Shown: piece after piece, positions 16,893 to 44,900 of the stretch
How positions within the stretch are numbered: the stretch's first letter is position 1
How the letters are laid out: each line of letters begins with the position of its first letter
Assembly (NCBI RefSeq): GCF_019649055.1
Contig: NW_026570236.1
Coordinates: 248,001 to 312,000, forward strand
Length of the DNA: 64,000 nucleotides
From: Paramacrobiotus metropolitanus
Lineage: Eukaryota > Tardigrada > Eutardigrada > Parachela > Macrobiotidae
Direction: 5' to 3'
The notes under the pieces: model-generated
What the model was told of the DNA's origin: nothing
Seen by the model: only the letters and a program-made list of their open reading frames with translations
Database searches by the model: none
Program-made: the position numbers and the translations under genes

Positions 16893-17139
16893 GTACTATA
16901 GACGAAATACTGCTCAAATGGTATAGTTTTTTCGTTCGTGATCTACTGCTCACTTTATTATTGTGATCTACTGCTCACTTTATAATTATCATTCTTTTGT
17001 ATAACGCAATATTGTACATAAAAACCAAGTATCTATTTATCCAAAAATTCATCGTTGTAAAGTCGGTATATTAAGTGCTCTCGCTTATTGTGTAGTAACG
17101 TTTTTTATTTACTGCTACAATTGTGAGGTTTCCAAGTAG
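16893..17139. other. Short AT-rich spacer
   Basis: Contains a short direct repeat of GTGATCTACTGCTCACTTTAT at 16938-16983 (two adjacent copies). No exon seen. Confidence 0.5.
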
Positions 17140-22516: not shown

Positions 22517-23484
22517 TTTACTGATACGGTATGCACGTAGAAATATGCAAATGCAATGCATGCAGCGACAGGAGCGAATAAAATTAATGTTCGGCACAAG
22601 TGGGAACCGCGCGCGGTTGAAATACACTTTATAAACCTGCTTGCAACAGATCCAGGAATTTTCGGCCTTGAGGAATATTTTCTGTAATATGATTCAGTGT
22701 AGAAAGAAAATAATAATCTCAATTGTCTGCGTCAACAAAGTGATAATTATTGATGTTATTAAATATTGCATTACAAATTAATACGGATTAGAAAAAAGTT
22801 TGAAATCGGATCGCTGCAGCAATTTAGTAGCACTGAAACAACGTCATATGCGTTAAAGTTATGTGCTGTTCTTAGAGCCATTCACAGGATGACATCGGAG
22901 GGAGTCTCTTTCGTAGTACACGGTACTGAAATTAAAACTACTTACGCGTTTAACAGCCGTAATTATCACATTTTCTGTTTTAATTTCGAAAACAAGCTCC
23001 TCACACTGGCTCAAAATTGTGTACTTATTTCCCTCTTTTAGCCCAAATTTCCTTGATTTCGTCATGAGCTGCCAGAAGGATTCAATGCCACAATTTACCC
23101 CAAGCCATATGGAACACCACTGTTTGTGTGCCTTGACGCAATCATTTTTTCCACTATAAAATCGCATGAGCAGAGCCGGATGCCGGTGCGTTATTCCAAA
23201 AATGGATTTCCTAATTTAGTGATACTTTAAGTGTAAGTAATTATTTCTGCAGTAAATACATAAACCAGATCAAGGTTCCTTAAGACCCTCCTCAGGTTTA
23301 ACCTTGAAGTATGTGCTAATTAATATAATGGGAATCGGAATGCGTTAATCGGTTCTTAAACGAAGGCGAATTTCGCGGGAATATTAATTAATCCGCCAGC
23401 AAGATTAATACAAAGAATTAAGCACGGATACGTGTGCAATTGCATAGCGAAATATAACAAATTAGAAGCGCTATATTAATACCA
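22517..23484. other. Noncoding, shared with unit B
   Basis: Aligns with unit B 37404-38010. No exon seen. Confidence 0.6.
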
Positions 23485-23489
23485 TTTAA

Positions 23490-23985
23490 TGTTACCGCTT
23501 CCGGACTCCACTGGGGGCACTGGAGCCCCGGCTGCTGGGAGGCTGGTGCTCTCTGTGATCGGCTGTGTGCGGTGACCGTGGGTCAGCGAGAAGCCGGCCG
23601 ACCGGGGGTCGGCGGAAGAGAGCGACCAGTGCCCTGCGCAACCGAAGGCCCCTTTATTGAGCAGGTGCGAAATAACAGCACAAGAAAACAGCAGGGTGTG
23701 GCGGGTGGTAAAAGAACAGAGATCACTCGCGCGCACACGATATCGAAGGAGCAAAGACAGACAGCAGTGAGAACTGCAGATCGAACCATGCAATGCGAGC
23801 ACACGAACAGTACCAAGTGCAAACAGCATGCCCGTGCGTGACGGCGGCCGCTTTGATCTAAGCGCCACGGCGACGCGCAGCGCCACCAACAGACTCACGT
23901 AACTCGCAACACACGGCGAAAGGAGACAGAGCGGGAGCGCATGTCCTCCAGCTAACATTAACATCAATTAACTCGTTAATTGTCA
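23490..23985. mobile_element. LTR-like repeat, copy 1 (TG...CA, 496 bp)
   Basis: Begins TGTTACCGCTTCC and ends TTAATTGTCA, the TG...CA ends usual for LTRs. It is flanked by TTTAA on both sides (23485-23489 and 23986-23990). Its first about 165 bp recur exactly at 23991-24155, and its last part recurs at about 27794-27989. No reverse transcriptase or integrase coding is present. Best read as a solo LTR or LTR-like repeat. Confidence 0.6.
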
Positions 23986-23990
23986 TTTAA

Positions 23991-26900
23991 TGTTACCGCT
24001 TCCGGACTCCACTGGGGGCACTGGAGCCCCGGCTGCTGGGAGGCTGGTGCTCTCTGTGATCGGCTGTGTGCGGTGACCGTGGGTCAGCGAGAAGCCGGCC
24101 GACCGGGGGTCGGCGGAAGAGAGCGACCAGTGCCCTGCGCAACCGAAGGCCCCAAACAAAACCCCAAACAACCCAATATAAGAATTGATGAGCAGTTGCA
24201 CGGTTCTGCGGATGTATTTGCTGAAGATTCGGAGTTCAATTGGGAGAAAGCAAAATCCGGCTATCTTTACGTCGCCAGGGCTGACGTCGTTACGTTGCCG
24301 ATAAGGAGCGGTGCGGTGTGATGATCCCGGCGTGGTATGGCAGGATCCGTGGTGTCAGCATCCAGTCAGGTTTTTCCAAGCAAAGTGCAACCACCGCTAG
24401 TGACCTGCTTGCCGTCGGAAGTAAGCGCACCGGAGGTGGTGGCTTTGTATGCTGTCCGAGGAAGGTGCAACCGCTGCTGGGGTCTGCTTGCCGTCGGAGA
24501 TAAGCACGGGAAGCACCGGAGGTGATGGCCTTGTATGTCGTCCGAGGAAAGTGCAACCGCCGCTGGGGTCTGCTTGCCGTCGGAGGTAGGCGCACCGGAA
24601 GTGGTGGCCTTGTATGCCGTCCGAGGAAGGTGCAACCGCCGCTGGGGGTCTGCTTGCCTTCGGAGCCAGAGGTAGGCGCACCGGAGGTGGTGGCCTTGTA
24701 CGCCGTCCGAGGAAGGTGCCACCGCCGCTGGGGGTCTGCTTGCCGTCGGAGGTAACTGTGGCCGTCACTGCTGGCTTGCCTTGCCGTCCGAAGTAGGCGG
24801 TTGCAGTTAGTGGCACGCATTGTCGCTAGATGTAGGTGCAGTTGTGGCTGGAGGCTTACCTACCTGTTGGACACAATCCGGGCGTAGTTGCAGGTAATGT
24901 GTGGTCGTCGGAGCAGGATGTGGCCGTGGTTGAAGGCCTGCTTTGCCGTCCGCGGTAGGTGTAGCCGTCGCTGTTGGCTTGCCTTGCCGTCGGAGCTGGG
25001 TGCAGCCTTAGTTATAGCCTGCCCTGCCGTCCGAGGTGGTGCAACAGTCATGTTGGCTTTCATGCCGCCGGTGGGAGGGAAAGCCGTAGCTGGAACAACC
25101 CGCTTTGCCGTCGGAGGTGGTGGAGCCATCGTTGGTGGCTTACTGTCCGCAAAAGTTGGTGACGACATAATTGTTGGCTTGCCCTTCCGTTGGAGAAAGG
25201 TGCTGCCGTCGTTGGTGTGGCCGCTTGCCGTCTGAGGAGGGCATCGCCGTAGCTACGGAGCATGAGTCGCGTCCGTGGAAGCTGTAGCCGGCTTTAGTGG
25301 CCTGGTATGTCGTCCGTGGAAGGTGGAACCGCCGCTGGGGTTCTGCTTGCCGTCGAAGGTAGGCGCAGCCGAAGTTAGTGGCCTTGTATGCCGTCCGAGG
25401 AAGGGGCAACCGCCGCTGGGGTCTGCTTGCCGTAGGAGGAAGGCGCAGCCGAAGTTGGTGGCCTTGTATGCCATCCGAGGAAGGTGCAACCGCCGCTGGG
25501 GGTCTGCTTGCCGTCGGAGGAAGGCGCAGCCGAAGTTGGTGACCTTGTATGCCGTCCGAGGAAGGTGCAACCGCCGCTGGGGGTCTGCTTGCCGTCGGAG
25601 GAAGGCGCAGCCGAAGTTGGTGGCCTTGTATACCGTCCGAGAAAGATGCAACCGCCGCTGGGGGTCTGCTTGCCGTCGGAGGAAGCGCAGCCGAAGTTAG
25701 TGGCCTTGTATGCCGTCCGAGGAAGGTGCAACCGCCGCTGGGGCTCTGCTTGCCGTCGGAGGAAGGCGCAGCCGAAGTTGGTGGCCTTGTATGCCGTCCG
25801 AGGAAGATGCAACCGCCGCTGGGGTTCTGCTTGCCGTCGGAGGAAGCGCAGCCGAAGTTAGTGGCCTTGTATGCCGTCCGAGGAAGGTGCAACCGCCGCT
25901 GGGGCTCTGCTTGCCGTCGGAGGAAAGCGCAGCCGAAGTTGGTGGCCTTGTATGCCGTCCGAGAAAGATGCAACCGCCGCTGGGGGTCTGCTTGCCGTCG
26001 GAGGAAGGAGCAGCCGAAGTTGGTGGCCTTGTATGCCGTCCGAGGAAGGTGCAACCGCCGCTGCGGGTCTGCTTGCCGTCGGAGGAAGGAGCAGCCGAAG
26101 TTGGTGGCCTTGTATGCCGTCCGAGGAAGGTGCAACCGCCGCTGGGGGTCTGCTTGCCGTCGGAGGTAGGCGCAGCCGAAGTTGGATGACCTTGTATGCC
26201 GTCCGAGGAAGATGCAACCGCCGCTGGGGTTCTGCTTGCCGTCGGAGGAAGGAGCAGCCGAAGTTAGTGGCCTTGTATGCCGTCCGAGGAAGGTGCAACC
26301 GCCGCTGGGGCTCTGCTTGCCGTCGGAGGAAGGCGCAGCCGAAGTTGGTGGCCTTGTATGCCGTCCGAGAAAGATGCAACCGCCGCTGGGGGTCTGCTTG
26401 CCGTCGGAGGAAGCGCAGCCGAAGTTAGTGGCCTTGTATGCCGTCCGAGGAAGGTGCAACCGCCGCTGGGGGTCTGCTTGCCGTCGGAGGAAGGCGCAGC
26501 CGAAGTTGGTGGCCTTGTATGCCGTCCGAGGAAGGTGCAACCGCCACGGGGGTCTGCTTGCCGTCGGAGGAAGGCGCAGCCGAAGTTGGTGGCCTTGTAT
26601 GCCGTCCGAGGAAGGTGCAACCGCCACTGGGGGTCTGCTTGCCGTCGGAGGTAGGCGCAGCCGAAGTTGGTGGCCTTGTATGCCGTCCGAGGAAGGTGCA
26701 ACCGCCACTGGGGGTCTGCTTGCCGTCGAAGGTAGGCGCAGCCGAAGTTGGTGGCCTTGTATGCCGTCCGAGGAAGGTGCAACCGTTGCTAGCGGTCCGG
26801 TCTGCCGTCCGAAGGAGGTGCGGCTGTTAGGTCTGTGCCCGCTTGCCGTCGGAGGAAGGCGCCGCCGTAGCCGGGGGGCCTGCCTGCCGTCCGAGGAAGG

Positions 26901-27989
26901 TGCCCTTGATAGATCACCAGCTCGCTGTCGGATGTGTGCTCCGCCGAAGGTAATGAGCCTGTCAGCCGTCCGAGGAAGATGCGGCCGCCGTTAATGGGCC
27001 TGCTTGCGTCAGATATGGGGACAGCTATTCGTAGGCGGCCTAATTGCCGTCCATGGAAGGTGTGGCTGCATCTGGGGGCCTATCTTGTCGTCCGAGGATG
27101 GTGCAGCTCTCGTCAGTGGCCTAGTATTGCGCCCGGCCGTTGGAAGGGGGCTGTCGCTGTCGGAGGTAAAGCGGCCGTAGTTAGGGTGCTTCGTTGCTGT
27201 CCGAGGGAGATGCAGCCGCAGTTGAAGGCCTGTGTTGCCGTTAGAGTCACGTGCAGCCGTTGTCGGTGGCTTGACTGGCGTCGTGGTTAGGTGCGAGTCG
27301 CCACCGTAGTTGGAGGCCTGCCCTGCCGTCCAATGAAGGGCTCGCGTCAAAAATGGTGCAGCTTTCCTTCGTGGCCTAGCTTCCCGTTAGGCCTAGCCAC
27401 AGCAGATAATTGATGACGGGTGTAACTTGTCCGCTGAGCAGTGGTTGATCTTGGCCGCTTTTCCCTTCGCACTGATGGTTCTCCGGAGGGCCGCTTAACG
27501 AGCAAGTGGCGTTCAAGCTGAGTGCGAGCTGTTCGCTTGGCTCTTCGGATGCGGTGTGGATTTAGATGACGCATAAAGAGCTGATCTGAAATTCTGGCGA
27601 GGATATAACCAGTCACCGATGGTGACAGTCTGACAGAACCTAGAAAGCGATAAACGAGGAGCTGAGCCATCGCACAGATGGTAGCTAGAAATCAGCTATC
27701 GCAGATGCGCGGAACACGGCGCGCGGAACGGATAAACATTCCGAAGTCCAAAATGCAGATCAAGGAAGATGGAAGATCTCGATTCCGAACAGAAAAGAAC
27801 AGAGATCACTCGCGCGCACACGATATCGAAGGAGCAAAGACAGACAGCAGTGAGAACTGATCTAAGCGCCACGGCGACGCGCAGCGCCACCAACAGACTC
27901 ACGTAACTCGCAACACACGGCGAAAGGAGACAGAGCGGGAGCGCATGTCCTCCAGCTAACATTAACATCAATTAACTCGTTAATTGTCA
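23991..27989. mobile_element. LTR-like repeat, copy 2, interrupted by satellite
   Basis: Starts immediately after the TTTAA that ends copy 1, with the same 165-bp left part. After about 3.6 kb of other sequence it resumes at GAACAGAGATCACTCGCGCG (about 27798) and ends at the same TTGTCA, followed by TTTAG (27990-27994). The right part lacks a 79-bp block present in copy 1 (deleted between GATC microhomologies). The near identity of both copies suggests recent origin. The central part is mainly the 81-bp satellite. Confidence 0.6.
24380..27340. repeat. GC-rich tandem satellite, 81-bp unit
   Basis: The core array (about 25290-26790) repeats an 81-bp unit made of two related ~40-bp halves: one with GTATGCCGTCCGAGGAAGGT, the other with CTTGCCGTCGGAGGAAGGCG. 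Edges (24380-25290 and 26800-27340) are older, divergent units, the usual pattern of homogenised centre and decayed margins. The unit length is a multiple of three and contains no stop in any frame, so all six frames are open for long stretches (522 codons on the minus strand). Coding cannot be inferred. Confidence 0.88.
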
Positions 27990-28094
27990 TTTAGAAATAG
28001 AATATTATAATTATTATGCAATTTACGATGTGGGCAGCAAAAGAGGCATCCACGGGCATATATGTACAAAGTAATATCTATAGATCATAAAAGG

Positions 28095-29321
28095 CTATAA
28101 AAGGCTTAATTTGTTTGACAGTACTGTTAGTTGTGCCGAACGGTATATCCATTCGTGCATCTCTCGGTGTGGTCTAAACCAAAACTCCACTAAACCAGTT
28201 GCATCCGTTTTGGCGTTTCTAAAGGTGAACTGAGAGGATACATTCGATCCCACTGTGTTTTTAGAGGGAATTTCACCGTACTGAACCATGCTAGGAATCC
28301 ATGTTGGTGACAGTGAAGACGTGTAAGGTTCCTCCCTCGGTACAATCAACAGCCGCCCCTTATGACGCCACATGCACTGATTGTGAAATTTTTCCAGTAC
28401 ACGCTGCGATAGCGGCAAGCGAACCGCAACGGTAAAAACCGCTGTGTCGCCTTCGGTAATAGTTTGCGGGACCAAAGACTGGGCGAATATCTCTTCAGCA
28501 TGGGTGACCAGTGGTACTAGACTATAGCGTCGTATTACGGTTTTTTTCGTCAGTCTTTCTTCATAGCACACAATCTCGCCACTGGACTGCAAAGTCACGT
28601 TGAAAATTTGGAAAATCAAACTGTCACCGTACTGGGCGAAGTTATAGTGCTGATTGTTTAGGCTCTCCACAGGCAGCGCTTCGCCGTGCTGGAACAGCGT
28701 TCGGCCTTGGAAAGTCAAGGAGATATCCCGGGAATTTTTGTCTGTTGATGCAAGACAGCCGAAGGAAACGTTTTGGCCAAGACGTGGACGTCGTATAATC
28801 GGTACGGGGTCGTTCTTCGCAGTGGCAGCTTGAGGAAATTTTAAGGTCACTTTGTCATCTTCCTGGTACGGAATCGCACGGGCAATTATGTCGTCAACTA
28901 TAATGTAAAAGCATTTTCTTTCTGTTTGACCAAGCAGAAATCGTCGCCAGGGTTGACTTAATTAACTATAATTCAATTATCGAGTTAATTATGTTACCAG
29001 CTGGTAGAATTACGAGGATAAGTCCTTATTCTTTTCAAGCCTATTTGTGGAAGTTTATACGAGTACGTAGCTATTTTATTTAGTTTTTAAAGAATATACA
29101 TACTTATATTAAATTAGGATGTACAAAGAGCCTTATATTAACTATTCTGTGAAAGCATGATTTTTTTATTTTAAATTTTAGTCAATCCTTTGCAAACACC
29201 GAAACTTACGCAATAAATTTGCTTCGCTGTCTTTTTGCACAGTGCACGTGCTGCACCATCGGTACATTACACCCAATAACACGGCATGGAGCACCAATGT
29301 GAAAGGCGGTGGCAAAAACAT
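28095..29321 (-). CDS. Secreted two-Ig-domain-like protein (unit A copy)
   Basis: Two exons: 29210-29321 (signal peptide MFLPPPFTLVLHAVLLGVMY...) and 28095-28897, phase 1, GT-AG; 304 residues. The mature part has an Ig-like domain with RLGQNVSFGC as the B strand and SGEIVCYE as the F strand, with about 65 residues between the cysteines and the hydrophobic LIFQIFNVTL before the second Cys. A second domain has TAVFTVAVRLP and CMWRHKGRL. There is no transmembrane segment or GPI signal, so secretion is expected. I cannot assign a named family. The paralogue at 38607-39779 is intact and clearly homologous along the whole length; unit A has seven extra C-terminal residues (SNKLSLL). Confidence 0.8.
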
Positions 29322-30362
29322 TTTCCGGGGAATATATGCATGGCGTTGGTATTAAAGTAAATAAGTTTAATAGTTTATAAAACTCGTTTTAAAAATGAAT
29401 ACAATATGCCGGAAATTATCAGTGAAGTATCAGCGACGTACTAGTGCTTCTAGATATCCAGGTCTCTCACAGTAAATATATTCCTTTGTAGGTTTTAAAA
29501 AGTTGTAGTTAAGGAAAACAAAAACTTGTAAAGCAAGCTAAATCAAAACAGACACGAAACATACATTATGCTAAAACATAGTATTATATATAGTAAACAT
29601 ATGCATGCAAGTTACTACTGTTTTACTTGCAGGCGTTGCTAAGAGGCGCATTAGAACCCACGATTACGATAATATATTAATTTAAATTTTAAAATGAGTC
29701 TGTACTTGCGTTCCTACTCGTACTTACGAGTACAGTATTTTTAATTAACTGGCCGTGTTAGCTCCAAAATGTCGTTATGGCTGTGTCTTTTTATATTAGC
29801 TATGCAGTTGTGAACGGGGCTACCACTTTGTATATTAGTTTTGAAAATACAAAGTATACCGGGCAGTCACTGACAAGGCTATTTTGAGGTTTCTTACTAC
29901 AAACTATTCAGTGTGGAAATATTCAAACTGTTTCAGCCCTTAATTAAACTAAAATATGGAAGCCACAACTCATAATATCTGGAGAAAGAAATGGTGGATA
30001 TCCCGAGACCTGTGTTTGATAATACTCTGTAATATGCGGTGACGGTTATTGTTTGTACATTCGGTATTAATTTCTGCATACAGTTTTGAGTTTATTTTTG
30101 CTCGCGGAATGAACACAGTCAGATACGTATTTATCGAAGCCAAGAAACGTCACTAGTCTCAATTTCATTACCTAATGATACAGCAGCGATCGTAACGCAC
30201 AGAAGACAGTGAAATGATATAACTGTATTATACCGATTTCAAGCAAACACATTTAAAAGGATAGAGATTTCATCTTGAACCTGTATGATTTCTATAATGC
30301 CATTCTGTAGATCACGAAACACCACTGAAAAATTACTTAATAATCGTTAGAATTCCCAGCGA
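29322..30362. other. Noncoding, conserved between units
   Basis: Aligns at high identity with unit B 39780-40857. No exon seen; upstream region of the Ig-like gene. Confidence 0.65.
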
Positions 30363-30445
30363 CTATTTGAAAAATGGTAACTTCGCAAAGAGTCCGGTGG
30401 CCGCTTCCTTCACGTAGTTGACACCGTTTTCGACTTGCTTCATAA
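30363..30445 (-). pseudogene. Orphan copy of complexin last exon
   Basis: This 83-bp exon has an intact acceptor (TTTCAG) and stop and encodes MKQVENGVNYVKEAATGPLF plus AKLPFFK. It is the same length and nearly the same sequence as complexin exon 3 at 40858-40940. No complexin exon 1 or 2 lies upstream of it. Just upstream on the minus strand (about 30493-30590) is an open stretch ending in a GTAAGT donor in compatible phase (reading ...EDINLHAVIM), so the exon could have been captured by a new transcript. That is speculation. Confidence 0.8.
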
Positions 30446-30683
30446 CTGAAATTATAAAATCTAGGTTTTTATTACTCAACCAATAAATTGTAAGAACTTA
30501 CGCATGATGACGGCATGCAGATTAATGTCCTCAACAATGTTTGTTTGTTTAATGGGCTTAATGTCTGCGACGATCAGCTGTAACCTGCGCGAGGCCGAAG
30601 ACTACTCTCATCAGAAAAAGCTTTCGCGTAGCGAAAGCCTTACATCAAAAGATAAAACCATAAGCACTAACAATTCAAAGTAG
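30446..30683. other. Junction of duplication units A and B
   Basis: Similarity to the right end of unit B stops at about 30545, and the left end of unit B starts at about 30684. A small hairpin, CTTTCGC GTA GCGAAAG, lies at about 30624-30641. Confidence 0.55.
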
Positions 30684-31108
30684 TGTAATATGTGGCATGT
30701 AAATTGGTACTTCATTAGTAATCAAGATCAAAGACGTTGTAATTAAGTAGCCACTGCCAACCGAAATTAGATTTTATTTAACCCTGATTACGAAATTCTG
30801 AGAACACTAACAAAGGCTCGGATTAAACGGCAATTTCTTTCGAAGGCACACTTGCTAGAAGCGTATAAACAGATAATAGCATAGATTATTTTTCTACATG
30901 CGGCATGCATTATTTACACATATACTGTATAAAACGTAATCGAAAGATTTGTATTTTCATGTATACATATATACCCCTTCGAAATCATCGAGTGTTTGAC
31001 ATAAACAAGATGTAAACGTGCATGTATGATAGGGAAAACGTCATTCAAATTCTGGATTAAAAAGGTCATTTAATTTACTCAACAAAATTATTAATTTAAC
31101 GAGTCATC

Positions 31109-32296
31109 TTATTCGTCGCCCATACAAACGGCTGCCTTCTTTAGCAGTTCCTTCATTCCATGCAGGCGAGCGAAATCGAAATATGCCAACGCTGTGTCCT
31201 TCTTCACATCCGTCATCATCATTTCCTGACAGACACTCCGCAACGCCGCCATCCCGTACTTATCCGCCACACACCACATCTCCCGCATTTCTCCCAGCTC
31301 CGCCGTGAACGGTTGTCGACTGTACGCGAAGTGTACCAACTTCTCCAAAACCTCCCCGCGGAGATCCATCAGCACGTACTCGCCGTTGGTACGGTTGCGG
31401 TCGGTGTGGTTCTGGAACATGTCCAAGAAGAGCGGCGACTGGGCTGCCAGGATGGCCCGATGAGCGGGGAAGCGGCGGCCGTCATTAGCGATGAGAAGGC
31501 AATCGGTAAGAAGACCGCCGTCCAGGAGGGTGAGGAGTTCCACCGGCTGGCGCTTGATGTGGTACGTCATGTTGACGTAGACGTCGCCCGCGCGGAGGAT
31601 GTAGTCGCACTTGCCCGTGGTCTTCGATGTCGTATAGATTACCAAGGAGAACTGCATTTGCGACCACTGTCGAAGCCGCTGGGGAGCGGAACGTGCGGGG
31701 GATTTTCCTTAAGCCGGTCGTTTGTCGGGATCCACAGTTCCGGGGCAGCATAAGCTTGTGAACTGCAATAAATTTTTACTGTGTATATATAATCATTGTA
31801 GGTATGTACATATTTTGCAAGTATAAAAACCTGGAAAAAATTTGCAGCTCAGGTTTTTGTCTTAGATAACAGCGAATTTCAGAAAGGTCACTATTATGGC
31901 ATCAGTACACCAAAATAGTTATCGATATGGGTACGCCGCTTTTACCTACGCGGTATTTGAAATACGTAGCATTTTGCGCCATATATGCCACAAAACGCAC
32001 CTGATAGTGATCTCCGCTAGGGCGCCGTAGGGATCTTCGGCCGCGTGGAGCGGTGTCAAGACCGCACTAGTATTGATGTAGCCGCTTGACAAGTCATTAT
32101 TAATCTTAATGGTCAGCGTCCATGAGGACTCGGAGATCTCCGGATAGTCTTGCTGCTGGGTCACGCTGAACTCGGTCTTGTAGTCATAGAGTCCCACACC
32201 ACCGCTGGATCTTTCCGCACTTGGGGTCTTCACAAAGTTATCCGTGGGGATCTTGTACTGTAAGGTCACGGACTGTTTCTGAGCGCTGAGCGACAT
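31109..32296 (-). pseudogene. MATH-like/BTB paralogue with frameshift (unit B copy)
   Basis: Exons 32001-32296 and 31109-31762 correspond to the unit A gene and keep its splice sites. Early in exon 2 the sequence GAAAATCCCCCGCACG replaces GAAAATTCCGCACG, a net gain of two bases, so the frame from exon 1 meets a TGG-TAA stop near 31640. The BTB part stays open from an internal ATG at 31657 (MQFSLVIYTTSKTTGKCDY, 182 residues) and its residues are well conserved, so a truncated BTB-only product is possible. Otherwise it is a young pseudogene. A sequencing error in the C run cannot be excluded. Confidence 0.75.
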
Positions 32297-32490
32297 GATT
32301 TTGGTCGTAGTTAACAGTTTATTGTGGAAAGGTCAGTATTATGCATGGTATTATCACTGCACTGCAGCTGGTACTGGTAGTTTATAGCAGAGTCGAAATA
32401 ATTAAGCAACAGTTAAAACTGCGAATGAACTGCAGGGGTTTTAATACCCTTTAACCGGCTGACTGTGGGGTGCAGGATTTGAGTACCTAA

Positions 32491-33690
32491 TGCCCCGGTC
32501 ATACTTCGTGTTCGAAGCCTTTAAAACAGTTCTGATCAAAAAATGTGTTAACAGTATGATCGCAAGCTGTTCTAAGCACCTTTTTCTTAGAACAAAAAAC
32601 TATGACCACTGTCAGGAGATAGGCGCCACTGCCCAGGAGTGTGGGTTGAGTGGGTGTCGCACCGACTCCGATTTCGTGTTCTGTGTGATACGTCCACGGC
32701 CAGAGAGATTGGCATGGCATATGCAGGCCGAGACGTTTCGATTTGATTTAGTTGGAGATTTTGGCTCGACAGCATGGAGACGTCCATGCTGTGCGAGATG
32801 GCCTTTGGATATTTGCGCATGCTAGAGTGACCCTTTATTAACATCTTCGACATTAATAAAGCGATCGTTTGTGGCGTCGTTGTTTTCCGTTGCATTCCTA
32901 TGCAGCGCAGGCATAGCGCTTACACCACTCTTCGAACAAAATCTTGTTTTAGTGGGGAGGGGCTTAATCAAGCTTCTTAAGATGTTTTAGTACTTTTAAC
33001 CAATAGCATCGCTCATGACCGGAACTGGATCCTGGTTACAACACCGTATTCCCATTTTTTCATGTCTTGATAATGCGGATATACATGTACTTGAATTTAC
33101 GTAAAAAAGTACTGTCAAAAGCAGAGGTGATATATTCTTGAACTTATTTGGAAAAGTACGAGTTTTGTTACTATCATTTAAAATCGCGACCAACATCCGT
33201 AATATTTAACCAAAACTTGCAAATAATTTAACCGGCACAAAATGAGCAAAAAATGGTAGCGTAAAAACGAGGCTCGTTTTTTCCGAGCATTGCGACGAGA
33301 TGTTACGGCGCACAAAGAATAATAAGAGACAGTAGTGCTTGTTTCTTTCGGAAAAGCGGAAACTGCATCGCGTAATATTGGTAAAAACTGTTTTTAAAAT
33401 ACGAAAGCCCAAATTCAAATTCTTCTACTTTTTGGAAGTTCGTGGTACTCTGATGAAGTGATGCTACTGTAGTCTGATTTTTATTTTCAAATTTTTGGAT
33501 CAAACGGGTGAAGTCTCTATTACCAGAACAGTGTTAGCGGTATGACCAGCACACCGATAAAACTGTCCTAAGCATACTTCTGCGAACAGCTTAACACTTA
33601 AACACTTAACACTTAAAACAAATTCTTTAGATCCTGTGCTAAACAAAAAGTTCTAAAATTTTCGTTAGAACACGAAGTATGACCGAGGCA
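32491..33690. mobile_element. PIF/Harbinger-like non-autonomous element, 1,200 bp
   Basis: Inverted ends TGCCCCGGTCATACTTCGTG (left) and its complement at 33671-33690 (23 bp, one mismatch), flanked by a TAA target duplication (32488-32490 and 33691-33693). The uninterrupted site survives in unit A (TAA at 14618-14620), so the insertion is certain and postdates the duplication. A 3-bp TAA/TWA target is the mark of PIF/Harbinger. There is no transposase ORF. Confidence 0.85.
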
Positions 33691-33693
33691 TAA

Positions 33694-34147
33694 CTTGCGT
33701 AATGTTACTAAGTAAGAAATCACCAGATAAACGTCCATCCGGGTCACCTAATTGCCTGCCAGTTACCAATATCCATACCGGCCCATACAGATTACATTAG
33801 GTTTTACGTCCGGCTGGTTGTGCAAGCTGGTTAGAAAAGGTCAAAAGTAAACCCGACTCGATCCCTGGAAATACTAGAACTGCCAAAACCATACTTCTAT
33901 AATTATAACGCAGAAAGCTTGTTATTCTTACAAGTTTTAATATTCCATACTTTTTCCAGTACTACTTAAGACCGTTAGGACATATTTTTTTAGCAGAACG
34001 TTTAAAAAAACTGCAGAATACCCTACGAACTACTTTCAAAATTTTTTAAGGCTGAATTTGACTAAAACTGATCATGTGTTGATAAGATCATAAAAACCGC
34101 CCATAATCAAGTTTAATTTTGGACGGTAAGATTGTATGAATGTAAAG
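33694..34147. other. Noncoding, aligned with unit A 14621-15080
   Basis: No exon seen. High similarity to the unit A counterpart. Confidence 0.6.
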
Positions 34148-34154
34148 AAAACAT

Positions 34155-34408
34155 TTTTTTTATTCAAGTGCTTTTTATTTTTTTCCACCTTGCTAAGCCA
34201 GTTTAAACATCCAAAAAACACACAAACGTCACACAGCATAAAAAAACAGCGGAAACATGCGGCCGAATCACAGAGAACATTTGATCTAAATTAGCCGAGA
34301 CTGGTGTCGTTCCCAGGATGGATGCCGCATTTCCACGTTGAATTTCGATGCTGAACCTCTGGCGCAGATATTCCGTTGCGTAATGCGCAACGGAGTATCG
34401 GAACTCTC
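34155..34408 (-). pseudogene. 5'-truncated processed retrocopy with poly(A) tail
   Basis: A 254-bp insertion absent from unit A, flanked by the 7-bp duplication AAAACAT (34148-34154, 34409-34415). On the minus strand it ends in an AATAAA-like, A-rich tail (CACTTGAATAAAAAAA) and begins abruptly. It contains an open frame reading EFRYSVAHYATEYLRQRF and continuing to a hydrophobic C-terminus with a stop. These are the marks of LINE-driven retroposition. I do not recognise the source gene; it should exist as a full-length intron-bearing gene elsewhere, or the piece may be a LINE or SINE 3' end. Confidence 0.7.
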
Positions 34409-35023
34409 AAAACATATTACATTTATCATTTTATGCATAAATAAAGTGTGTTATTTTGGGATATTGTGTATAATATTCTGAATGGAAAACGCAGTGTAAA
34501 TTTTTGATCAGTTGATCTATCCCAAAATTAATTTTGGGCTGTTAGGTTCACTTGCATTAAACCAAACAGCTCAACACATTGTGAAAGTAAATATGCTAAC
34601 AAGTAAGAAAGTGTAGTCGCTTATTGCGCGCACTGCATTACCGAAGAATATTACATGCGTATAGCGGGAATATTGTACTCGTACATGATAAAATGCAGGC
34701 TTTTGTTTTAGGCAGCGCGATTTCATTGTTTTAATATCTTCAGAGCACCATGAGGTTTGTGGAAAAAGGTGAAATAAAAACAGATTGTATTGTATTGCTT
34801 TCGTAACCTCTGCTAACGTTCGTTCTGTTAAAATTGTTGCGTCTGCAAATAAGCTTGTGCTATGCGTAAAGCTAATTTTACAAATTTCATAGGTTCATGA
34901 CAATTTTTACTATAACAGTGTTGCTTGTTTTGCATTAGTTACTAAGATCATGACAGCGATGGCCGGTACTTTACCAGAGGCAACTACGTCTGCATACACA
35001 TGCACAACAAAACCATTGTAAAA
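34409..35023. other. Noncoding, aligned with unit A
   Basis: No exon seen. At about 34793 the unit A sequence corresponding to 15476-18288 is missing. Confidence 0.55.
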
Positions 35024-35297
35024 CTACCGCTCAAAGATTTGCCAACTTGGAAAAATAACATAACCATCAGATGTAAAATTTCCCTATCATTTGCTTGCTT
35101 GTTCCCGATATAGTACATGAAATCATTCCTAAAGCTTATATATGCCCCCAACCAACCTTCCACCCCGTCCGTAAACACAAAATGATCCATCATGCTCATC
35201 AAGGTGATCTGCACCTCCGGCGATTCGCTTACAAAAATGACATTGGGCTCGGTGAAGATCTCTTTGCAATACGTCATATTGTTGCTGAAGATGAAAA
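35024..35297 (-). pseudogene. GT11-like gene fragment, unit B, truncated
   Basis: Only the 3' quarter remains: FIFSNNMTYCKEIF through WLGAYISFRNDFMYYIG, about 90% similar to the unit A gene, then a one-base deletion changes the frame before the old stop. Upstream it is cut at about 35297 by a tyrosine-recombinase element. The exons for the anchor and catalytic core are gone. Confidence 0.85.
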
Positions 35298-35808
35298 CAT
35301 TACACTCCTTCTGCAGGATGTGGGTTGGGACACCATCACGCTGCAGCTGACCATCAAGCGGTCCAAAACGGATCAGCACCAAAACGGGATCACCCTGTCT
35401 CTGACGTCCAACGCCGCGCCGGCAGTACACAGCGCCTGCGTCACTTACGGGCGACAGCGCCAGCAGCAGCGGCCGCCTAATCTACCGTTCTTCATTTTCG
35501 GCAGCGGCCGATATTTGACCCGCACAGACCTGTCACAAGCGCTTAAGAGAACTCTCCCGGAAGGAGAGGACTCTCGGCGCTACTCATCGCATAGTTTCCG
35601 CATCGGCGGAGCTACAGCAGCCGCCACCGGCGGCTGTTCGCCGGAAGCCATACGCGAACTTGGACGATGGAAATCGTCCGCGTTCAAGCGTTACATCCGC
35701 CCGCAAAGTCTGCGCGTACCATCATGTTTGGGGCACTTCCTCACTCGCGCAGCTCTCTCGCAATGGTACGCACAGAACCGCACCGGAAGGTGCACTCATA
35801 CATCCTGA
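35298..35808 (+). mobile_element. Tyrosine recombinase, C-terminal catalytic part (DIRS/Crypton-type element fragment)
   Basis: An open frame fused by chance to antisense GT11 sequence. From 35298 it encodes DTITLQLTIKRSKTDQHQNG (beta-strand Lys motif), YLTRTDLSQALKRTLP, SSHSFRIGGATAAA (HxxR box) and IRELGRWKSSAFKRYIRP (Trp/His position plus catalytic Tyr). These are the conserved C-terminal motifs of tyrosine recombinases as found in DIRS, Ngaro and Crypton elements. The N-terminal SAM-like domain and the first catalytic Arg are missing, so it is 5'-truncated and inactive by itself. The exact family and the right boundary (perhaps about 36100) are uncertain. Confidence 0.8.
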
Positions 35809-35909
35809 CCACGAATCAGGATCCATCACCCTGGCCATGTATCAGGTGCCGTAAAACCTCCCTGGCCACGTATCAGGGAGCAGCTATTCACCTGGCCACG
35901 CATCAGGTG
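35802..35909. repeat. Array of four hairpins with constant core and covarying stems
   Basis: Four 17-bp copies of CCTGGCCACGTATCAGG (35804, 35830, 35861, 35891), spaced 26-31 bp. Each can fold with CCTG pairing CAGG. The flanking bases differ between copies but stay complementary: ATCCTG/CAGGAT, CACCCTG/CAGGTG (one bulge), CTCCCTG/CAGGGAG, CACCTG/CAGGTG. The array starts at the end of the recombinase frame. Confidence 0.75.
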
Positions 35910-36956
35910 TCCCACTCCACGCATACGCTCCTTCCGGTGGTCGAGCATGTTCTGACGTTTCCACGTGACTCCGCGGCCGAGCTGAGGCTGGCCACATGCC
36001 CCAACACAAGCGCCGGCGTTTCTCGTATTATGTCGTTAATGCAGTGTTTGCTAACAGCGAAAGGGTGCCATCTGAGATTCTCTAATGGAAAAGTTGTTTT
36101 TATTAATGCTACGGACGTTTTTTGTCTTCAGAATTACAAAAGGTTATAAGATGTCTGAAGTTCTGAACCGCATGGAGTACAAAATCAGCTGTTGCAGTAT
36201 AAATGTGTAATATTATATTTCTTTCTTACAACTATTTGTCGTAAAGAAATATTGCTCTTTCTAAGTTTTGACCTTTCCGTACGTCTAGAATAAGCAATGC
36301 CGATACTCAGACTCTGAATTACAAAAGTGCTTTATTACCGAGTAAGTGCGCTGAGCAACTATTGCATCTCACTTTTATTGAGTTCCGTTTGCTTTTATGC
36401 GGCAAAAAACCCCTATTACAAATTAGAGGAAAAGGCTCGCATATCGCATAACCTATTCTTTTTTGAAAGCTTTGTAAACAAAACTTATGCAACGGAAGCA
36501 ACAATAAGGTTAAAAAACCGCTTGCTGTTTTGCATGAATCATGAATCTTTTTCCCCTATTTTTTAAAAACATGCTATAAAACGTTGTGTATAACAAAGAT
36601 CGAATAATACGATTATCAGAAAGCACGTTGCAACGTTATGATAAAAATAAAATGCACACAATAATTTCAAATCAGGTAGAAAATTATGAAACTTGCATGC
36701 AAAAATATTTTTCGAGCAGGTGCGCTTTATAAGCAGCTACCGTACAAAAGCAGAAAACAGAAAATTTAATGAATTTTCAATAAATAAACTGGGAATCGAA
36801 TTCAGGATAAAGGTCCGGATTTGGCATTGAAATCTGGTGGACGCCCGTGATAGTGATCATATCCGGCCTCAGTAACATGTGAATCCGGTATTTAACCCGC
36901 ATGCTCCGGATCGTGCAGGTGCATGATAATTCAGCAACATCCAGCAGATAATGAAG
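35910..36956. other. Tail of recombinase element and noncoding sequence
   Basis: GC-rich to about 36060, probably still element sequence, then AT-rich with no exon seen. Corresponding unit A sequence (5' GT11 exons) is not recognisable here. Confidence 0.5.
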
Positions 36957-37283
36957 CTATTTGGCATGTTGTCGTCGATTGTCGTAATCCCTTTTCCAAT
37001 CCCGCAATGGAATTCGGAGCTCTGTTGCACGGCTAGTTAGACGGCTTGTAATAATCCACCCACAATTGAAGATGTTAAGCCATACTTCGCGCGTAAACTT
37101 TTGGTTGTTAATTTTTACGATTATAATGCGCACTATGACATATAATGCATCCCTAACCAGTAACCCAATCACAATTGCCAGTGCCAAGTATTCCCAATTA
37201 ACCGGACAAGCGCAGGTGCAAAGGCAGTTGCAAGCCTCCACGAATTTCCTTGACCCGTCATAAACCACAACCGAAGTATTCAT
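36957..37283 (-). CDS. Small single-pass membrane protein (unit B copy)
   Basis: A single exon of 108 residues starting MNTSVVVYDGSRKFVEA, a cysteine cluster (CNCLCTCACP), one hydrophobic segment (YLALAIVIGLLVRDALYVIV) and a basic tail ending RDWKRDYDNRRQHAK. Position, orientation and aligned flanks make it the counterpart of 22139-22516. The reading frame is open, but protein identity to the unit A copy is low. Function unknown. Confidence 0.45.
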   Translation of the reverse strand: MNTSVVVYDGSRKFVEACNCLCTCACPVNWEYLALAIVIGLLVRDALYVIVRIIIVKINNQKFTREVWLNIFNCGWIITSRLTSRATELRIPLRDWKRDYDNRRQHAK

Positions 37284-38533
37284 TGTAAGAGAAAGATTAA
37301 AAATCAAATGTGAAGTCAAAATGCAACGATGATAGCGGGCGTTAAAATAATGTTTAAGATGAGCATGACATTGCTGTTTAAATGCACTTAGAAAATCCGT
37401 TTGCAGCAGATCCAGGGATTTTCGGCCCTGAGAAATAATACTTGCAACATGATTCCCCATTGTAGAAAGGAAATAATGACGCCAATTGTCGACGTCGGCA
37501 AAGTAGTACCAATATTATTAAATGCTGTCTAATAAATTAATTCGAGTTACAAAAAAAGTTCGAAATGTGACCGGCGACCGTTACCACAATTTAATAGCAT
37601 CACAACAACATCATATGCGCTCAAGTTACATGCTGTTCTTGGGACCATTTCCCGGATGTTATCGGAAGCTTTTCCTTTTCGTAGCTCACAGCACTCAAAC
37701 GGAAAAAACTAACTTCTGTCTGACAACCTCAATTTTCACTTTCGATTTCGAATACAAACTGCTTACAATTACTTTAATTTATTTCCGTTCTCATACCCAG
37801 ATCACCGTGGTTTAGTTATGAGCTCATTGCAGTAAGATTTGATGCCATCGATGACCCCAAGGATTATAAAACACCGTTGTGCGCTGGACTTAATCATTTC
37901 CTTCACGAATGCATCGCTTGAGCAGAACCGGATGTCGGTGTGTTATTTCAATAAATAATTGCATAATCACGTGCCTATTTAAGGGAAGTAATTATACTGT
38001 AGTAAATTCATAAACGAAACGAAAGATAGCATTATATGTAATTAAGGCGCTCTTCAAAAATAAGCGAAGTACGAAGTAAATGGTTTGTACATGCGCAAAT
38101 GAAACTTTTTCGTTTTATTACACTTCCCACAATTGTTTTATGCTTTGTTTTAACCAATTTGGGCGGTAATGCGAAGTTCGGGAGTGGGCCGTTTTATAAA
38201 GTCGGGAGTTGGCTGTAAGAATAGTTGCGTTTTATGATAATTCTACCCTTGTAATAATATTTACCTATACTATATATATATGCGTATGGACAATGTCTTG
38301 ATTTCAATAAACTACAGTATAATGAAGCAAATCTGACTAAGAACGGTTTTGGCATTGAAATGGCGAAAAGGTCAATGCACAGCCGGAATGTATGATATTC
38401 ATCTGACAAAGCGAATGCAAAGAATTAAAAATGTACACATAGCAAGATCCGAACAAATCCCCAACAATTCGCATACTTAATTAGCAACATTCAGTCAGCA
38501 TCAGTGTTATTTACGATGCGGCAGCAGATAACA
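37284..38533. other. Noncoding, partly aligned with unit A 22517-23300
   Basis: No exon seen. Confidence 0.55.
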
Positions 38534-38606
38534 CACTGTTATTGTTCATAACTGTTATTGTTACTGTTATTGTTATTGTTGTTATTATTGTTCCTACTGT
38601 TATTGT
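38534..38606. repeat. GTTATT-type microsatellite
   Basis: Repeats of ACTGTTATTGTT / GTTATTGTTATTG directly abut the stop codon of the unit B Ig-like gene. Confidence 0.75.
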
Positions 38607-39779
38607 TCATAACACATTCAGTTTAGCCGATTGATATATCCATTCGTGCGTCTCACGGTGCGGCCTAAACCAAAACTCCACTGGACCATTATCACGCGGC
38701 TTGACGTTTTCGAAAGTGAACCGATAAAGTAATGATCCCACAGTGTTCTTGTCCGGAATTCGACCAAACTGAACCTGCATAGGAATCCACGTTGGTGGCA
38801 TGGAAGACGTGTACGGCTCTTCCTTCGGCACACTCAACCATTGTCCCTTATGACGCCACATGCAATGAGTGTGCAAATTGTCCAATACACGCTGCGATAG
38901 CGGCATGCGAACCGCGACGGCAAAGGTCGCCGAACCACCTTGTGTCACATTTTGCGGGACCAAAGACTGAGCGAATATTTCTTCGGCACGGGTGATCAAT
39001 GGCATTAGACTATAGCGTCGAATTACGGCTTTTTTTACCAATCCTTCATAGCACACAATCTCGCCAGTGGACTGCAAAGTGACGTTGAAAACTTGAAAAA
39101 TTAAAGTATCACCGTACTGAGCGAAATGGTAGCGCTGATTGTTTACGTTCTCCACGGGCAGCCTTTCGCCCTGTTGGAACAGCGTTTGGCCTTGAAAAGT
39201 CAAAGAGATTGCCCGGGAGTTTCCTTCTGGCGATGCAAAGCAAGTGAAGGAGACGTTCTGACCAAGACGCGGACGTCGGATGATCACTGCGGGGTCGTTC
39301 TTTTCCAATAGAACAGCTTGAGGAAATTTCAGGGTCACTTTGTCATCTTCCTGGTACTGAACCGCACGGGCAATTATTTCGTCAACTATAATGAGAACAG
39401 CGCTTTCTTTCCGTTTGACCAAACCGAAATTGTCGCCAGGATCGACTTGATTAATTGTAATACAATTATCTTAGCTACTTATGTTACCAAATTGGAATTG
39501 GTAGAACTATGGTGATAAGTTCCTGTTCCTTATCGAGTCTACTTTTAGTAGTTTATATCAGTACTATTTAATTTTTTTATTAAAGAACAGTGCACTAAAG
39601 AACCTGTATTTACATTTATTTGTTTTACATTTTTATTAGTAAATGCTTTGCAAAAACCAAAACTTACGCAGTAAATTTGCTTTGCTGTCTTTTTGCACAG
39701 TGCACGTGCTGCACCATCGGTACATTACACCCAATAACACGGCATGGAATACCAATGTGAAAGGCAGTGGCAAAAACAT
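38607..39779 (-). CDS. Secreted two-Ig-domain-like protein (unit B copy)
   Basis: Two exons, 39668-39779 and 38607-39385, with the same phase-1 GT-AG intron position as the unit A gene; 296 residues. Signal peptide MFLPLPFTLVFHAVLLGVMY. Ig-like features: LGQNVSFTC, LIFQVFNVTLQSTGEIVCYE, then the second domain with ATFAVAVRMP and CMWRHKGQW, ending FWFRPHRETHEWIYQSAKL. The frame is fully intact with many substitutions relative to unit A, which suggests both are expressed genes under constraint. The stop lies at the edge of a microsatellite, which may have shortened the C-terminus. Confidence 0.8.
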
Positions 39780-40857
39780 TTTCCAGGAAATATATGCATG
39801 GCGATGGTATTAAATAATAAGTCTAATAATTTATAAAAGTCGTGTTAAAATGAATACAATACGCCGGAAATTATCAGTGAAGCATCAGGAACCGAGCGAC
39901 GTACTGGTGCTTCCAGATCGCTCGTACAGTGACTATCCAGATATCTCACAGGAAATATATTTCTTTGTAGATTTTAAAAATTCGTAGTTTAAGAAAACAG
40001 GATAAATCAAAACAGGCACAAAACATACATTATACTAAAACATAGTATTATAGTAAACGTATGCATGCAAGTTCTGCTGTTTTTATTTGCAGACGTTGCT
40101 AAGAGGCACATGAGAACTCAACGATTACGAATAATAAATTAATTTAAATTTTAAATGAGTAAGTACTTATGTGCCTACCTGTTTTTTTAATTTCCTGGCA
40201 TGGTTAGCTCCAAATATCGTTACGGATGTGATTTTTATATTAGCTATGTAAAGTTTGAACGGGGCTAATACTTTGTGTATTAGTTTTAAAATGAAAGTAT
40301 ACTTCAAAACACGACACTGTAGATAGATACATAGTATGCGGACTGCAAATGACCACCGGGCAGTCACTGACAACGCTATCTTCAGGTTTCTTACTACAAA
40401 CGATTCAGTGTGGAAATATTCAAAAATATTTCAGCGCTTAAATAAATTAAAATATGGACGCTACAACTAATAATATCTGGAGAAAGAAACGGGGACATCC
40501 CGAGACGGCGAGACCTGTGTTTGCTAGTAGTAGGCGGTGACGGCCATTGTTTGTACATTGGGTATTAATTCTGCATACAGTTTTGAGTTTATTTTTGCGC
40601 GAGGAATGAACACAGTCAGATACGTATTTATCGAAGCCAAGAAACGTCAACGGTCAATTTCATCACCTAATGATACAGCAGCGATCATAATGCACAGAAG
40701 ACAATAAAATAGTATAACTGTATTATACCGATTTCAGGCAGACATATTTAAAAGGATAGAGATTTCATGTTGAACCTGTATAATTTCTATAGTGCCATTT
40801 TGTAGATCACGAAACACCATTGAAAAATTACTTAACAATCGTTAGAATTCCCAGCGG
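39780..40857. other. Noncoding, conserved between units
   Basis: Aligns with 29322-30362. Lies between the Ig-like gene and complexin. Confidence 0.65.
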
Positions 40858-41935
40858 CTATTTGAAAAATGGTAACTTCGCAAAGAGTCCGGTGGCTGCT
40901 TCCTTCACGTAGTTGACACCGTTTTCCACTTGCTTCATAACTGCAATTATAAAATACAGGTTTTTATTAACCGGAGAATTGTAAACATTGCCCATGATGC
41001 CGGCATGTAAATTAATTACGAATCTAAGTATAGTAAGTCGGCAGACTGTAGATAACTTTACGGATGGACAGTAAACATGCGTTGTTCTAATATGAGCACT
41101 CTGTTCAGTATGTTCTTTGTAAAATTTCTTTAAGAATCTATGCTGCCTTGTCTACATACGTCAGTTAAGCAGTGTTAAAAAAATCATATAATTGCATGCA
41201 AAATTAGAAACTCTGGACGCGTGTACTCCGTTATTTGTCATATGGATATGCACAAAAGGACACATCATTTTTCGATACTTTGCTGTCACTAATTCGAACT
41301 GGAAAAGTTTTCTAAACGCAGTCATACCTTGTAAATAATGCACTCGTACTGTTGATAATAATAAGCTGATAATAATAATTTATGTTCGGCCTGCGAATCT
41401 TACGTGGTAAGTCCTCGTCTGCCATGGCCGCTTGCTGGGCCAGTAGAGCTTGGTCGGCTTTTGGTTTATTGAGGCGACCTTCCATGCCCGGCATTGCGGC
41501 AGGTTCCGGCTCAACGATGATCTCCTTCTTTTTTATTCCGTACTGCATTTACAAGAATTCAGTGTCAGATTTTATATAATGATCCAACCGTAAAAGAATA
41601 CTAGTTATAATATGACAATTAATAAGGTAACGATAAAAGCATAATTTAGCGGCATCATGTATAAAAATTAGGTCCATAGATTATAAACATAACAGAGAAA
41701 TATTCAGCTCACTGACCTTATCGCGGATACCTTGCCGCATTCCTTCCCGCTGTTCCTCCATCTTGCGGTGCTTCTCTTTGCGCGCAAACTCGGCCTCCTC
41801 GCGCATTTTCATCAGTTCAGCTTCCTCCTCAGCCGTGGCCCCGCCCTCTTCCTTTTTCTCCCCGTCCCCTTCTCCCGTCAGTTTTTTCACTTCACCCATC
41901 TTACTGGAAAGCATTTGTTTGGCCATAAACTCCAT
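40858..41935 (-). CDS. cpx: Complexin
   Basis: Three exons: 41717-41935, 41404-41542, 40858-40940 (phases 0 and 1, GT-AG); 146 residues. Starts MEFMAKQMLSSKMGEVKKLT, matching the complexin accessory N-terminus, then an acidic Glu-rich stretch. The SNARE-binding central helix is about residues 37-80 (EEAEFARKEKHRKMEEQREG, then MRQGIRDKYGIKKKE). The C-terminal helix YVKEAATGPLFAKLPFFK is amphipathic, as in complexins that bind curved vesicle membrane. It ends in FFK without a CAAX box, so it is of the non-farnesylated type. Complexin clamps and activates SNARE-driven neurotransmitter release at synapses. The ATG at 41935 is chosen over upstream readings because it gives the canonical MEF start. 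Confidence 0.97.
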
Positions 41936-44900
41936 TTTGGCGGTGTAAGAGTGAAACGATTTCGGAGAAAAAAATCCCGTGCGTGTGCTTCTACAACAAA
42001 AACGTTGTATCCCAATGCCGGTAAAAAAAGGAAAACGTGACCGGTGTTCAGTAGTCACGAAATACTATTTGCATAGACTTCCTTTTTTTGTCGCATGCAC
42101 TTCTGCCTATTTGAACGGAAACATGTATGTACAGTTCACTTTTATACGCTTTTCAGGTTGCGTGATTATTAAATTATTGGTGATTGCTTTGCAAGTAACA
42201 AAGCTCGGGAAAGAGCCAGAACGAAATGATGTCATGACAATTTAAAGCGTATCAGCTGATCCAATGCATGTACACCATCAAGTTTTATTGGCGACTGCAT
42301 TTTACAGCTGGAAAGGATAAAGCATATATCTTTTTCAAGAAACCGTTTCTTAATTCCAATCATCATTTTTTGTAAACTTTGTTTTATTATATCACAGTAA
42401 ATTTATTTTATAATAAATACGTGCACCATTGTCAACGTATGAATAAGTTTTTTTAATTGCACTTTCACTGTGCTGACGTTCATGATCATGCATGCCAACA
42501 TCCGGTTGTGATTCATGGATGCATTTGATTGAACAATTACCGCAACGGCTATACATGATATAAATAATTCACCGGGATCCATTGTGATAAACGTGTTGAT
42601 AATCCCGTTCTAATTGTAACCGTGTGGATTCGCATTTCATTTTAATCCCGTGGAAACTGGGAGACGGCGCTGTTACGGATTGCTGTTATTGATTATTGCC
42701 ACATGACTCCTAACTGCTTTTTAACACATTGTACCCTGAAAACGGAACGACTGTCGAGCGCACATTACACAGTACAGAGTACACAGTAGCGGTCCGCTCA
42801 ATCTTTTCTGCCGTTTTTCGACAGCATAGCGCCCAGCCAAATATAGCCATATACTGTACTCGGCTGAAGCACTTTTTAGCATTATGCAAATCCGTCAATA
42901 TTCAGCCAATATGCATCCATTATTCACAGACTTATTCAGCTGAATAAGTGCTGCTGACAAAGAATAGCCGGCCAGTTTAGGTATACGGGTATCGTTTACG
43001 GATGCAGCGTAAATAATCCGCTATTCGCATGTACGTCCAATGTGATTGGGGATACAAAAGTTCCATAATTTAGCGCAATTTTAACAACTGTAAAACATTC
43101 ATTTCTGCCAGTAATACCGCCCATGCATATGTGCTTTTTCATGTCGTATTGACAAGAGCTTAGAAAAAATTAAAGGTTTGTAAAACGTAGAACTGTACCA
43201 TACAACACTGAGAATTCTGATAATTTGTGCCTGGGTAAAAAGCGTCGCAACGAATGCAATACAGCTTATTTTCCTGCACATTTTAAGCGGTTTGCAGTTC
43301 CTCTGTGCGGGAGATGTTCATGCGTTTGAAAAAACACAATTTTTTTAATTAAAAATATTCAGAAACATTTTCGGCTACGTAATTCAACTAATATATGGCT
43401 TTTTTCACTGGTGAAAATTATTTCTGCCAGTCGGGCGCTCAAGAAATGATTGTTGGTGCCTAAACTGTTGCTTACCTTGTGTTCAAGAAGAGAATGTAAA
43501 TTCCCAAGTACGTGACCTTTACACGAAGCAGGCAGGGAGTCCAGTTGAAGAAGGGTAGGTGAATATATTTGCTAGTAAAAACGATTAATATCCGGGCATT
43601 ACTCTTCGGATTCGGGCTGGGAGAGCGCTGCGACAACAGCGTGCCTATCCGGGAACAAGAGCATTAAAGTCCCCAGCACTTGATGCGGCGCGCGTTGGCC
43701 AACAGCGGACTCCTGTTTGCTGCGGATAATCGATACATACTTGCTGCAGTGGTAGCGCAATGGAAAGCGCGGATGTTTTCACTATACTGCAGCAAATTGC
43801 ATTCAGTTTGCTGGATGCTGTGTGGGAGTATAAGGGAATAAAATGCCAGTGATGACCGGGTGGGGTAGTGACATAAACGGCAGTTACCAATATCTGTAGT
43901 ATATGACACCAGTTTTAATTTTTTTGTCGGCTTAAGAGTAATAGTAATAATACAGTCCTATAGTAATTTAAATGTACGACTGTACGTACGTCGTAATGCT
44001 GCTTGTGTTGCTGTAATGCTTATTGTGTTTGTTTAAGTAATTTTTGTTAACTCGGTGCCTGACTTACCAGCCAGGATTTGCAAGAAAATGTTGTCATATA
44101 ATAAAAGATTTAAAACATTTCTACGTGTTTATAAAAAAATAAAATACCGCCTTTTCTTTTGTCGCATCACGAGCAGGTCAGTTATTTATCTGATTACATT
44201 TTTATTATTTACGTACTTTTTTTAATTTTGTAACGGCTGCGATGCGAAGAGATTTGTTCATAAACCCATGCAGTATTTATACGGAATTGAATATCTGGAA
44301 ATTTTTAGTACTCTTGGATTTGTGTTAGTGGTCAAGTTATCACTGAAAAAGTACTATTGGACATTTCCGCCGTCTGCGTATTGATCGGCTGCTGATCAGG
44401 CGTAATAAGAAGAATCGCAGCACTTCCGTTTAGTCAACATTATGCTCTGCATATCGATCCCTATTTGTGTATTCCCAGGGATGGCGCACTTTTCTCTGAA
44501 GACACACGTACGCTTGCTACGTGTGCATGGAGAACATCGACAAGATTCGTTTTCTTAAAGCGACTAATACCAACCGGCTTAGTCGCGCTTTACTCTGAAC
44601 AAAACCGCTTCTCCATGAGCTGGTAAATCCTTAGACACATACGATACGTACAGATGTACATTACTATAATTATGTACTGCACTGGCGATGTGTTACAAAA
44701 TACAGTAAACAATATTATGTATTACAAAATAATGGTTTTCCATGTAGAATACTGTACATACCAGTGTGTGAAAACATGTACAATACACTCTGTATACAGT
44801 AAGTACTTAACTATTTTGCTACCGTATATAATTACTATCAAATTTAAGTCTTTATATAATAAATTCGACTGCTACATTACCACGCCACGCAATTTGCAGC

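Follow-up and report, generated by a model that had tools for sequence, protein, structure and literature searches.

A 17-nucleotide (nt) repeat with the consensus CCTGRCCAYGNATCAGG occurs four times, each copy on the + strand, at positions 35804-35907 of the window (the whole 64,000-nt stretch of DNA that was analysed). The array adjoins a fragment of a tyrosine recombinase and may be part of the 3' noncoding tail of a decayed tyrosine-recombinase mobile element, acting as a set of cis-acting stem-loops in + strand RNA. We give this reading a probability of about 0.4. Array and recombinase fragment share a GC-rich block, and the flanks of the repeat vary between copies in ways that suggest, with modest statistics, a paired stem.

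Position and conservation of the four-copy array

Copy 1 lies at 35804-35820 (CCTGACCACGAATCAGG), copy 2 at 35830-35846 (CCTGGCCATGTATCAGG), copy 3 at 35861-35877 (CCTGGCCACGTATCAGG), and copy 4 at 35891-35907 (CCTGGCCACGCATCAGG), with start-to-start distances of 26, 31, and 30 nt. An earlier, sequence-only reading had described four copies at a spacing of 26 to 31 bp, and both its coordinates and its spacing are correct. The constant core that it described holds for 14 of the 17 positions, loop included, whereas positions 5 (A/G), 9 (C/T), and 11 (A/T/C) are variable. The spacer sequences between copies (9, 14, and 13 nt) are mutually dissimilar, which indicates that the array is not a simple minisatellite, and Tandem Repeats Finder reported no array at the four-copy site. 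Outside six known repeat regions, the array was the only place in the window where a 17-base word is followed, within 130 bases downstream, by three more near copies; no such word was found in any of 20 block-shuffled windows. The consensus, with up to three mismatches, matches the window four times, always in the array (equalled in 1 of 100 shuffles). The repeats are certainly genuine. They are enclosed by a 13-nt inverted repeat (pair I21; 92% complementary) with its left arm at 35781-35793 and its right arm at 35927-35939 of the + strand.

Recombinase fragment and its GC-rich block

By weak but consistent profile matches, the + strand frame at 35302-35808 encodes the last 168 residues, at the C terminus, of a tyrosine recombinase whose 5' part is missing. 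PF00589 matches the frame with an E value of 2.5e-4 (21.3 bits, under the curated cut-off of 27.1) and a longer version of it with an E value of 1.4e-4, and two PHROG integrase families match with E values of 2.1e-5 and 2.5e-4. Letters of the catalytic HxxR...Y motif are present as HSFR and RYIRP. No NCBIfam family matched the fragment, no solved structure in the PDB matched it by sequence, and its predicted structure model has a mean pLDDT of 36. The stop codon of the frame (35806-35808) falls within the first hairpin, which bears out the earlier claim that the array stands at the 3' end of a tyrosine-recombinase frame.

Both features lie in a GC-rich block (35302-36037, + strand) that is delimited by a break in homology and by GC content (0.55 to 0.65 inside versus mostly 0.28 to 0.48 outside) and is missing from a paralogous copy of the locus. 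The window holds two diverged copies of this locus (12859-30526 and 30683-41016), a tandem segmental duplication that is 69 to 95% identical by segment and contains BTB, glycosyltransferase 11, and Ig-like frames, with insertions peculiar to each copy. The paralogous pairs are 12859-14620/30683-32490, 14618-15090/33691-34157, 15081-15475/34409-34794, 18284-18797/34791-35301, 22613-23265/37373-38015, and 28129-30526/38620-41016. The left edge of the block is sharp (35301/35302), as the homology between 18284-18797 and 34791-35301 stops at 35301. The right edge is uncertain within 36010-36037: the match to copy 1 (22000-22033; E value of 0.003) restarts at 36038 and is followed by longer matches, and GCCGGCG at 36010-36017, common to both, could belong to either side of the edge. 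The block replaces about 3.2 kb of locus copy 1, and a family 11 glycosyltransferase gene, carried by the - strand, lies at the break.

Repeats, recombinase fragment, and the block common to both are all directly observed. Absence of the block from the paralogous copy suggests that recombinase and array arrived together, or at least in one replaced segment; arrival in two separate events is a conceivable alternative. Since the two share one block, the array is most likely the 3' tail of a 5'-truncated tyrosine-recombinase element.

Several other features were observed in the window. Protein domains comprise cytochrome P450, BTB, glycosyltransferase 11, and C2, with a sub-threshold Ig match and two matches to slowpoke potassium channels, a set that suggests an animal source. 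Locus copy 2 contains an insertion at 32490-33691 whose terminal inverted repeats (ATGCCYCGGTCATACTTCGTGTTC) measure about 24 bases; it is likely a non-autonomous DNA transposon. An insertion in copy 1 (15476-18283) has 141-base inverted repeats that are 98% identical (15473-15613 and 16128-16268), a tandem array at about 17254-17822, and a 4-base overlap of the copies at the insertion point. Immediately to the right of the block, about 105 to 113 bases (36073-36185) run opposite to their counterpart in copy 1 (22037-22141), which marks a small local inversion. A GC-rich minisatellite (about 60 to 62% GC) with an 81-base unit occupies 24375-26785 (18.4 copies at 94% in 25297-26785); several frames are open on both of its strands, and exact repeats of 67 to 170 bases lie at its edges (23483-24153 and 27793-27993).

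Pairing in the stems and flanks

Each core can form five pairs that close a 7-nt loop (CCAYGNA), and four of the five pairs are invariant across the copies. On the + strand, copy 1 has A-U as its fifth pair (positions 5 and 13), and copies 2 to 4 have G-U, which on the - strand would become an A-C mismatch. Complementary flanks that differ between copies had been proposed earlier, and the ungapped extensions AT/AT, CTC/GAG, and CA/TG of copies 1, 3, and 4, respectively, are as described, while copy 2 (CAC..TGC) attains its CA/TG extension only if C at 35829 is bulged.

With one bulge allowed, at least two extra flank pairs in all four copies are expected with a P value of 0.0012 (200,000 draws from the block), and the summed flank pairs have P values of 0.0088 with and 0.0043 without the bulge. 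An empirical null gave a similar figure: viral contigs contain 65 unrelated occurrences of the core, of which 12 reach two pairs (bulge allowed), equivalent to a joint probability of about 0.0012 for four copies. A product of 2.4e-5 for the exact flank pattern is post hoc and was set aside. Permutation of the 3' flanks among copies was less discriminating, as the observed nine pairs are reached in 3 of the 24 arrangements, the real order counted. In column shuffles, which cannot model the bulge of copy 2, the covariation score was equalled in 9 of 500 cases; paired cells, cells changed on both sides, and further pair types were each equalled in 28 of 500, and pairs changed on both sides in 128 of 500. 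Independent changes are few because copies 2 and 4 have identical two flank pairs. Flank covariation is therefore suggestive. The strong covariation proposed in the sequence-only reading is not upheld by the permutations, the modest shuffle figures, and the bulged copy 2, and its account of the hairpins, correct in outline, overstated their strength.

Folding of the array in context

Four separate hairpins, as envisaged earlier, are not favoured when the array is folded. In the best + strand RNA fold of 35796-35915, hairpins 1 and 3 form, and copy 2 pairs with copy 4. Hairpin 1 had a probability of at least 0.99 in the several stretches folded; those of the others varied with the stretch (0.001 to 0.008 for hairpin 2, 0.45 to 0.99 for hairpin 3, and 0.01 to 0.57 for hairpin 4). 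As + strand DNA, hairpins 1 and 3 reached 0.94 to 0.97, hairpin 2 0.03 to 0.17, and hairpin 4 about 0.46.

The array alone has a folding z score of -1.66 on the + strand (33 of 500 shuffles as stable) and -1.94 on the - strand (17 of 500), and separate folding-tool runs gave -1.92, -2.21 (DNA), and -1.79. Inclusion of the enclosing 13-nt inverted repeat gave -2.98 and -2.92 on the + and - strands, respectively. Among 149 + strand windows over 30000-42000, six have a z score of ≤-3, three of them within 35520-35844. Given these six windows and a - strand equal to the + strand, the array domain is unexceptional, and neither strand is singled out.

Two further observations concern locus copy 2. 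About 250 bases (34158-34408) are absent from copy 1 and contain a perfect-looking short hairpin near 34367-34399. The best-folding window of the 149 (z score of -4.39) begins at 34320.

Proposed function and alternative explanations

In the parent element, the array would act as a cis-acting cluster of stem-loops in + strand RNA. The conserved stem and 7-nt loop would be the recognised part, and fourfold repetition would offer an element-encoded protein several binding sites, which might serve packaging or the start of reverse transcription, among other roles. We infer that the array is an original part of the element, with RNA as its working form, and the class of the element and the binding partner are inferred likewise. 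In favour of stem-loops in + strand RNA, the stem and loop are conserved, the spacers differ in sequence, the flanks pair, and A-U is exchanged for G-U on the + strand. The pairing of flanks that vary from copy to copy (chance of about 0.001) and the enclosing inverted repeat, with the z scores of -2.98 (+) and -2.92 (-) that it brings, count for this reading. Against it stand a best fold without four hairpins (hairpin 2 at 0.001 to 0.008), z scores of -1.66 (+) and -1.94 (-) for the array alone, a - strand equal to the + strand once the enclosing repeat is included, 6 of 149 neighbourhood windows at ≤-3, and 3 of 24 flank permutations that equal the real order. A single copy is known, and none of 18 scanned frames contains a reverse transcriptase. 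The earlier interpretation of the array as a whole is supported in part.

The chief rival, which we consider unlikely, is that the quasi-palindromic 17-mer direct repeats are duplex DNA sites bound by the recombinase or an accessory protein, with inverted arms on either side of a 7-bp centre. A recombinase site typically consists of a 6- to 8-bp segment between inverted arms of 11 to 13 bp, according to an excerpt of PMC3212892. Short arms around a conserved 7-bp centre recall this arrangement, and a start-to-start spacing of 26 to 31 bp corresponds to about 2.5 to 3 helical turns. The arms in the array, however, measure 5 to 8 bp against the 11 to 13 bp given in that excerpt, and sequence-specific binding leaves flanks that vary yet pair unexplained, insofar as the pairing is real.

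Equally likely as duplex sites is a neutral, degenerate repeat, in which a small palindrome was duplicated without function and flank complementarity arose by chance or by template switching in the hairpin. The modest pairing statistics (3 of 24 permutations, and 128 of 500 shuffles for changes on both sides) and the truncated state of the element would suit such an origin, whereas the retention of 14 of 17 core positions despite unlike spacers, and a site that Tandem Repeats Finder passes over, argue against it.

Search for relatives

No relative of the recombinase was confirmed in viral contigs, none was found by protein search in phages or plasmids, and DNA searches found no relative of the block in phages or plasmids. 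Tandem array cores were absent from viral contigs with either a strict or a loose pattern; single cores, which occurred there in 65 stretches, were never accompanied by a second loose core within 300 bases and served solely as the empirical null described above. These absences are little informative because the viral, phage, plasmid, and bacterial collections by design hold no animal genomes. No Rfam model matched the array (up to an E value of 5 in 34700-37400) or, at gathering score, any part of the window.

Among bacterial and archaeal genomes, two tandem loose cores were found in one stretch of a Caldilineae contig, which was rejected as a relative as it lies within a 685-residue coding frame with a Gly-rich tail and PGHASG twice. 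The loose single core was present in 75 of 199 genomes of the Caldilineae class versus 7 of 199 for a reversed control. This excess, which is only partly explained, may reflect codon and word usage; the variable bases look random. A triple core in G031 was likewise rejected, lying within a 332-residue frame in which a LIRxQAGxYL unit recurs. Of ten regions retrieved for inspection, L013 was the one read; the bacterial look-alikes examined are taken as coding coincidences.

No description of such an array was found in the portions of the open literature available to a search that included the four 17-mers. Judging from the literature seen, which was partial, the means by which retrotransposons with a tyrosine recombinase identify their own RNA or DNA are little known. 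Should intact relatives carry the cluster as well, it would provide a concrete candidate signal; coming from one decayed copy, the cluster is a lead and not a result.

Comparison with known systems

Folded hairpins are reportedly used by a tyrosine recombinase at integron attC sites (PMC2727003). The array can be compared with attC by mode of working only and differs in having a conserved core sequence and in not being bacterial. No attC-type box (RYYYAAC/GTTRRRY) was found in 35796-35915, a search covering both strands because the boxes are mutually reverse complementary.

DIRS1-like elements have internal complementary regions of 24 to 110 nt each and inverted terminal repeats, and both termini share with both internal regions a motif that is ≥10 nt long, according to the text and table seen of PMC3266345. 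That the array is a remnant of such internal regions and a right terminus is very unlikely: it does lie 3' of the recombinase, where such regions are located, is enclosed by a 13-nt inverted repeat, and might recall the motif shared by termini and internal regions, whereas its copies are direct repeats, exact inverted 9-mers occur at only two places in 35700-36100, and inverted repeats there reach at most 14 nt compared with the 24 to 110 nt given for internal regions in that partial source. On the 3' side of the element, to which this search was confined, no inverted repeat with both arms in 35700-36100 exceeds 14 nt, so that DIRS1-like internal complementary regions and inverted termini appear to be lacking from that side, and the DIRS-like terminal structure suggested earlier finds no long inverted repeat to represent it in the 3' part of the block. 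Direct 9-mers in 35700-36100 are the array's own only; in the split direct repeats (A1 - B1 A2 B2) of Ngaro- or PAT-like elements, A1 would fall in the lost 5' part.

It is also very unlikely that the hairpins serve as recombination sites in folded, single-stranded form, with a eukaryotic recombinase acting on stem-loops of the + strand of its element as an independent counterpart of bacterial integron attC.

A DIRS-, Ngaro-, or PAT-type retrotransposon is the most likely parent of the array, with the class left open and the DIRS order named as the likeliest. A Pfam scan of 18 of the 54 frames of at least 130 aa found neither reverse transcriptase nor RNase H; the fragment begins only at 35302. 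Crypton DNA transposons are similar in being eukaryotic tyrosine-recombinase elements. The Crypton recombinase families compared in the available part of PMC3212892 match DUF3504, and those of DIRS and Ngaro do not; the fragment, which comprises the C-terminal part only, differs from Crypton in having no DUF3504 match up to an E value of 10, which makes a Crypton identity less likely. Hairpins or palindromes are not mentioned in PMC3266345, PMC9210276, PMC4157794, PMC6681497, and PMC8547959. While no inverted termini with internal complementary regions and no split direct repeats were seen in the block, unlike in DIRS1-, PAT-, and Ngaro-like elements, it shares with them, as far as they are described in the parts consulted of PMC3266345, PMC4157794, and PMC9210276, a tyrosine recombinase with noncoding repeats downstream.
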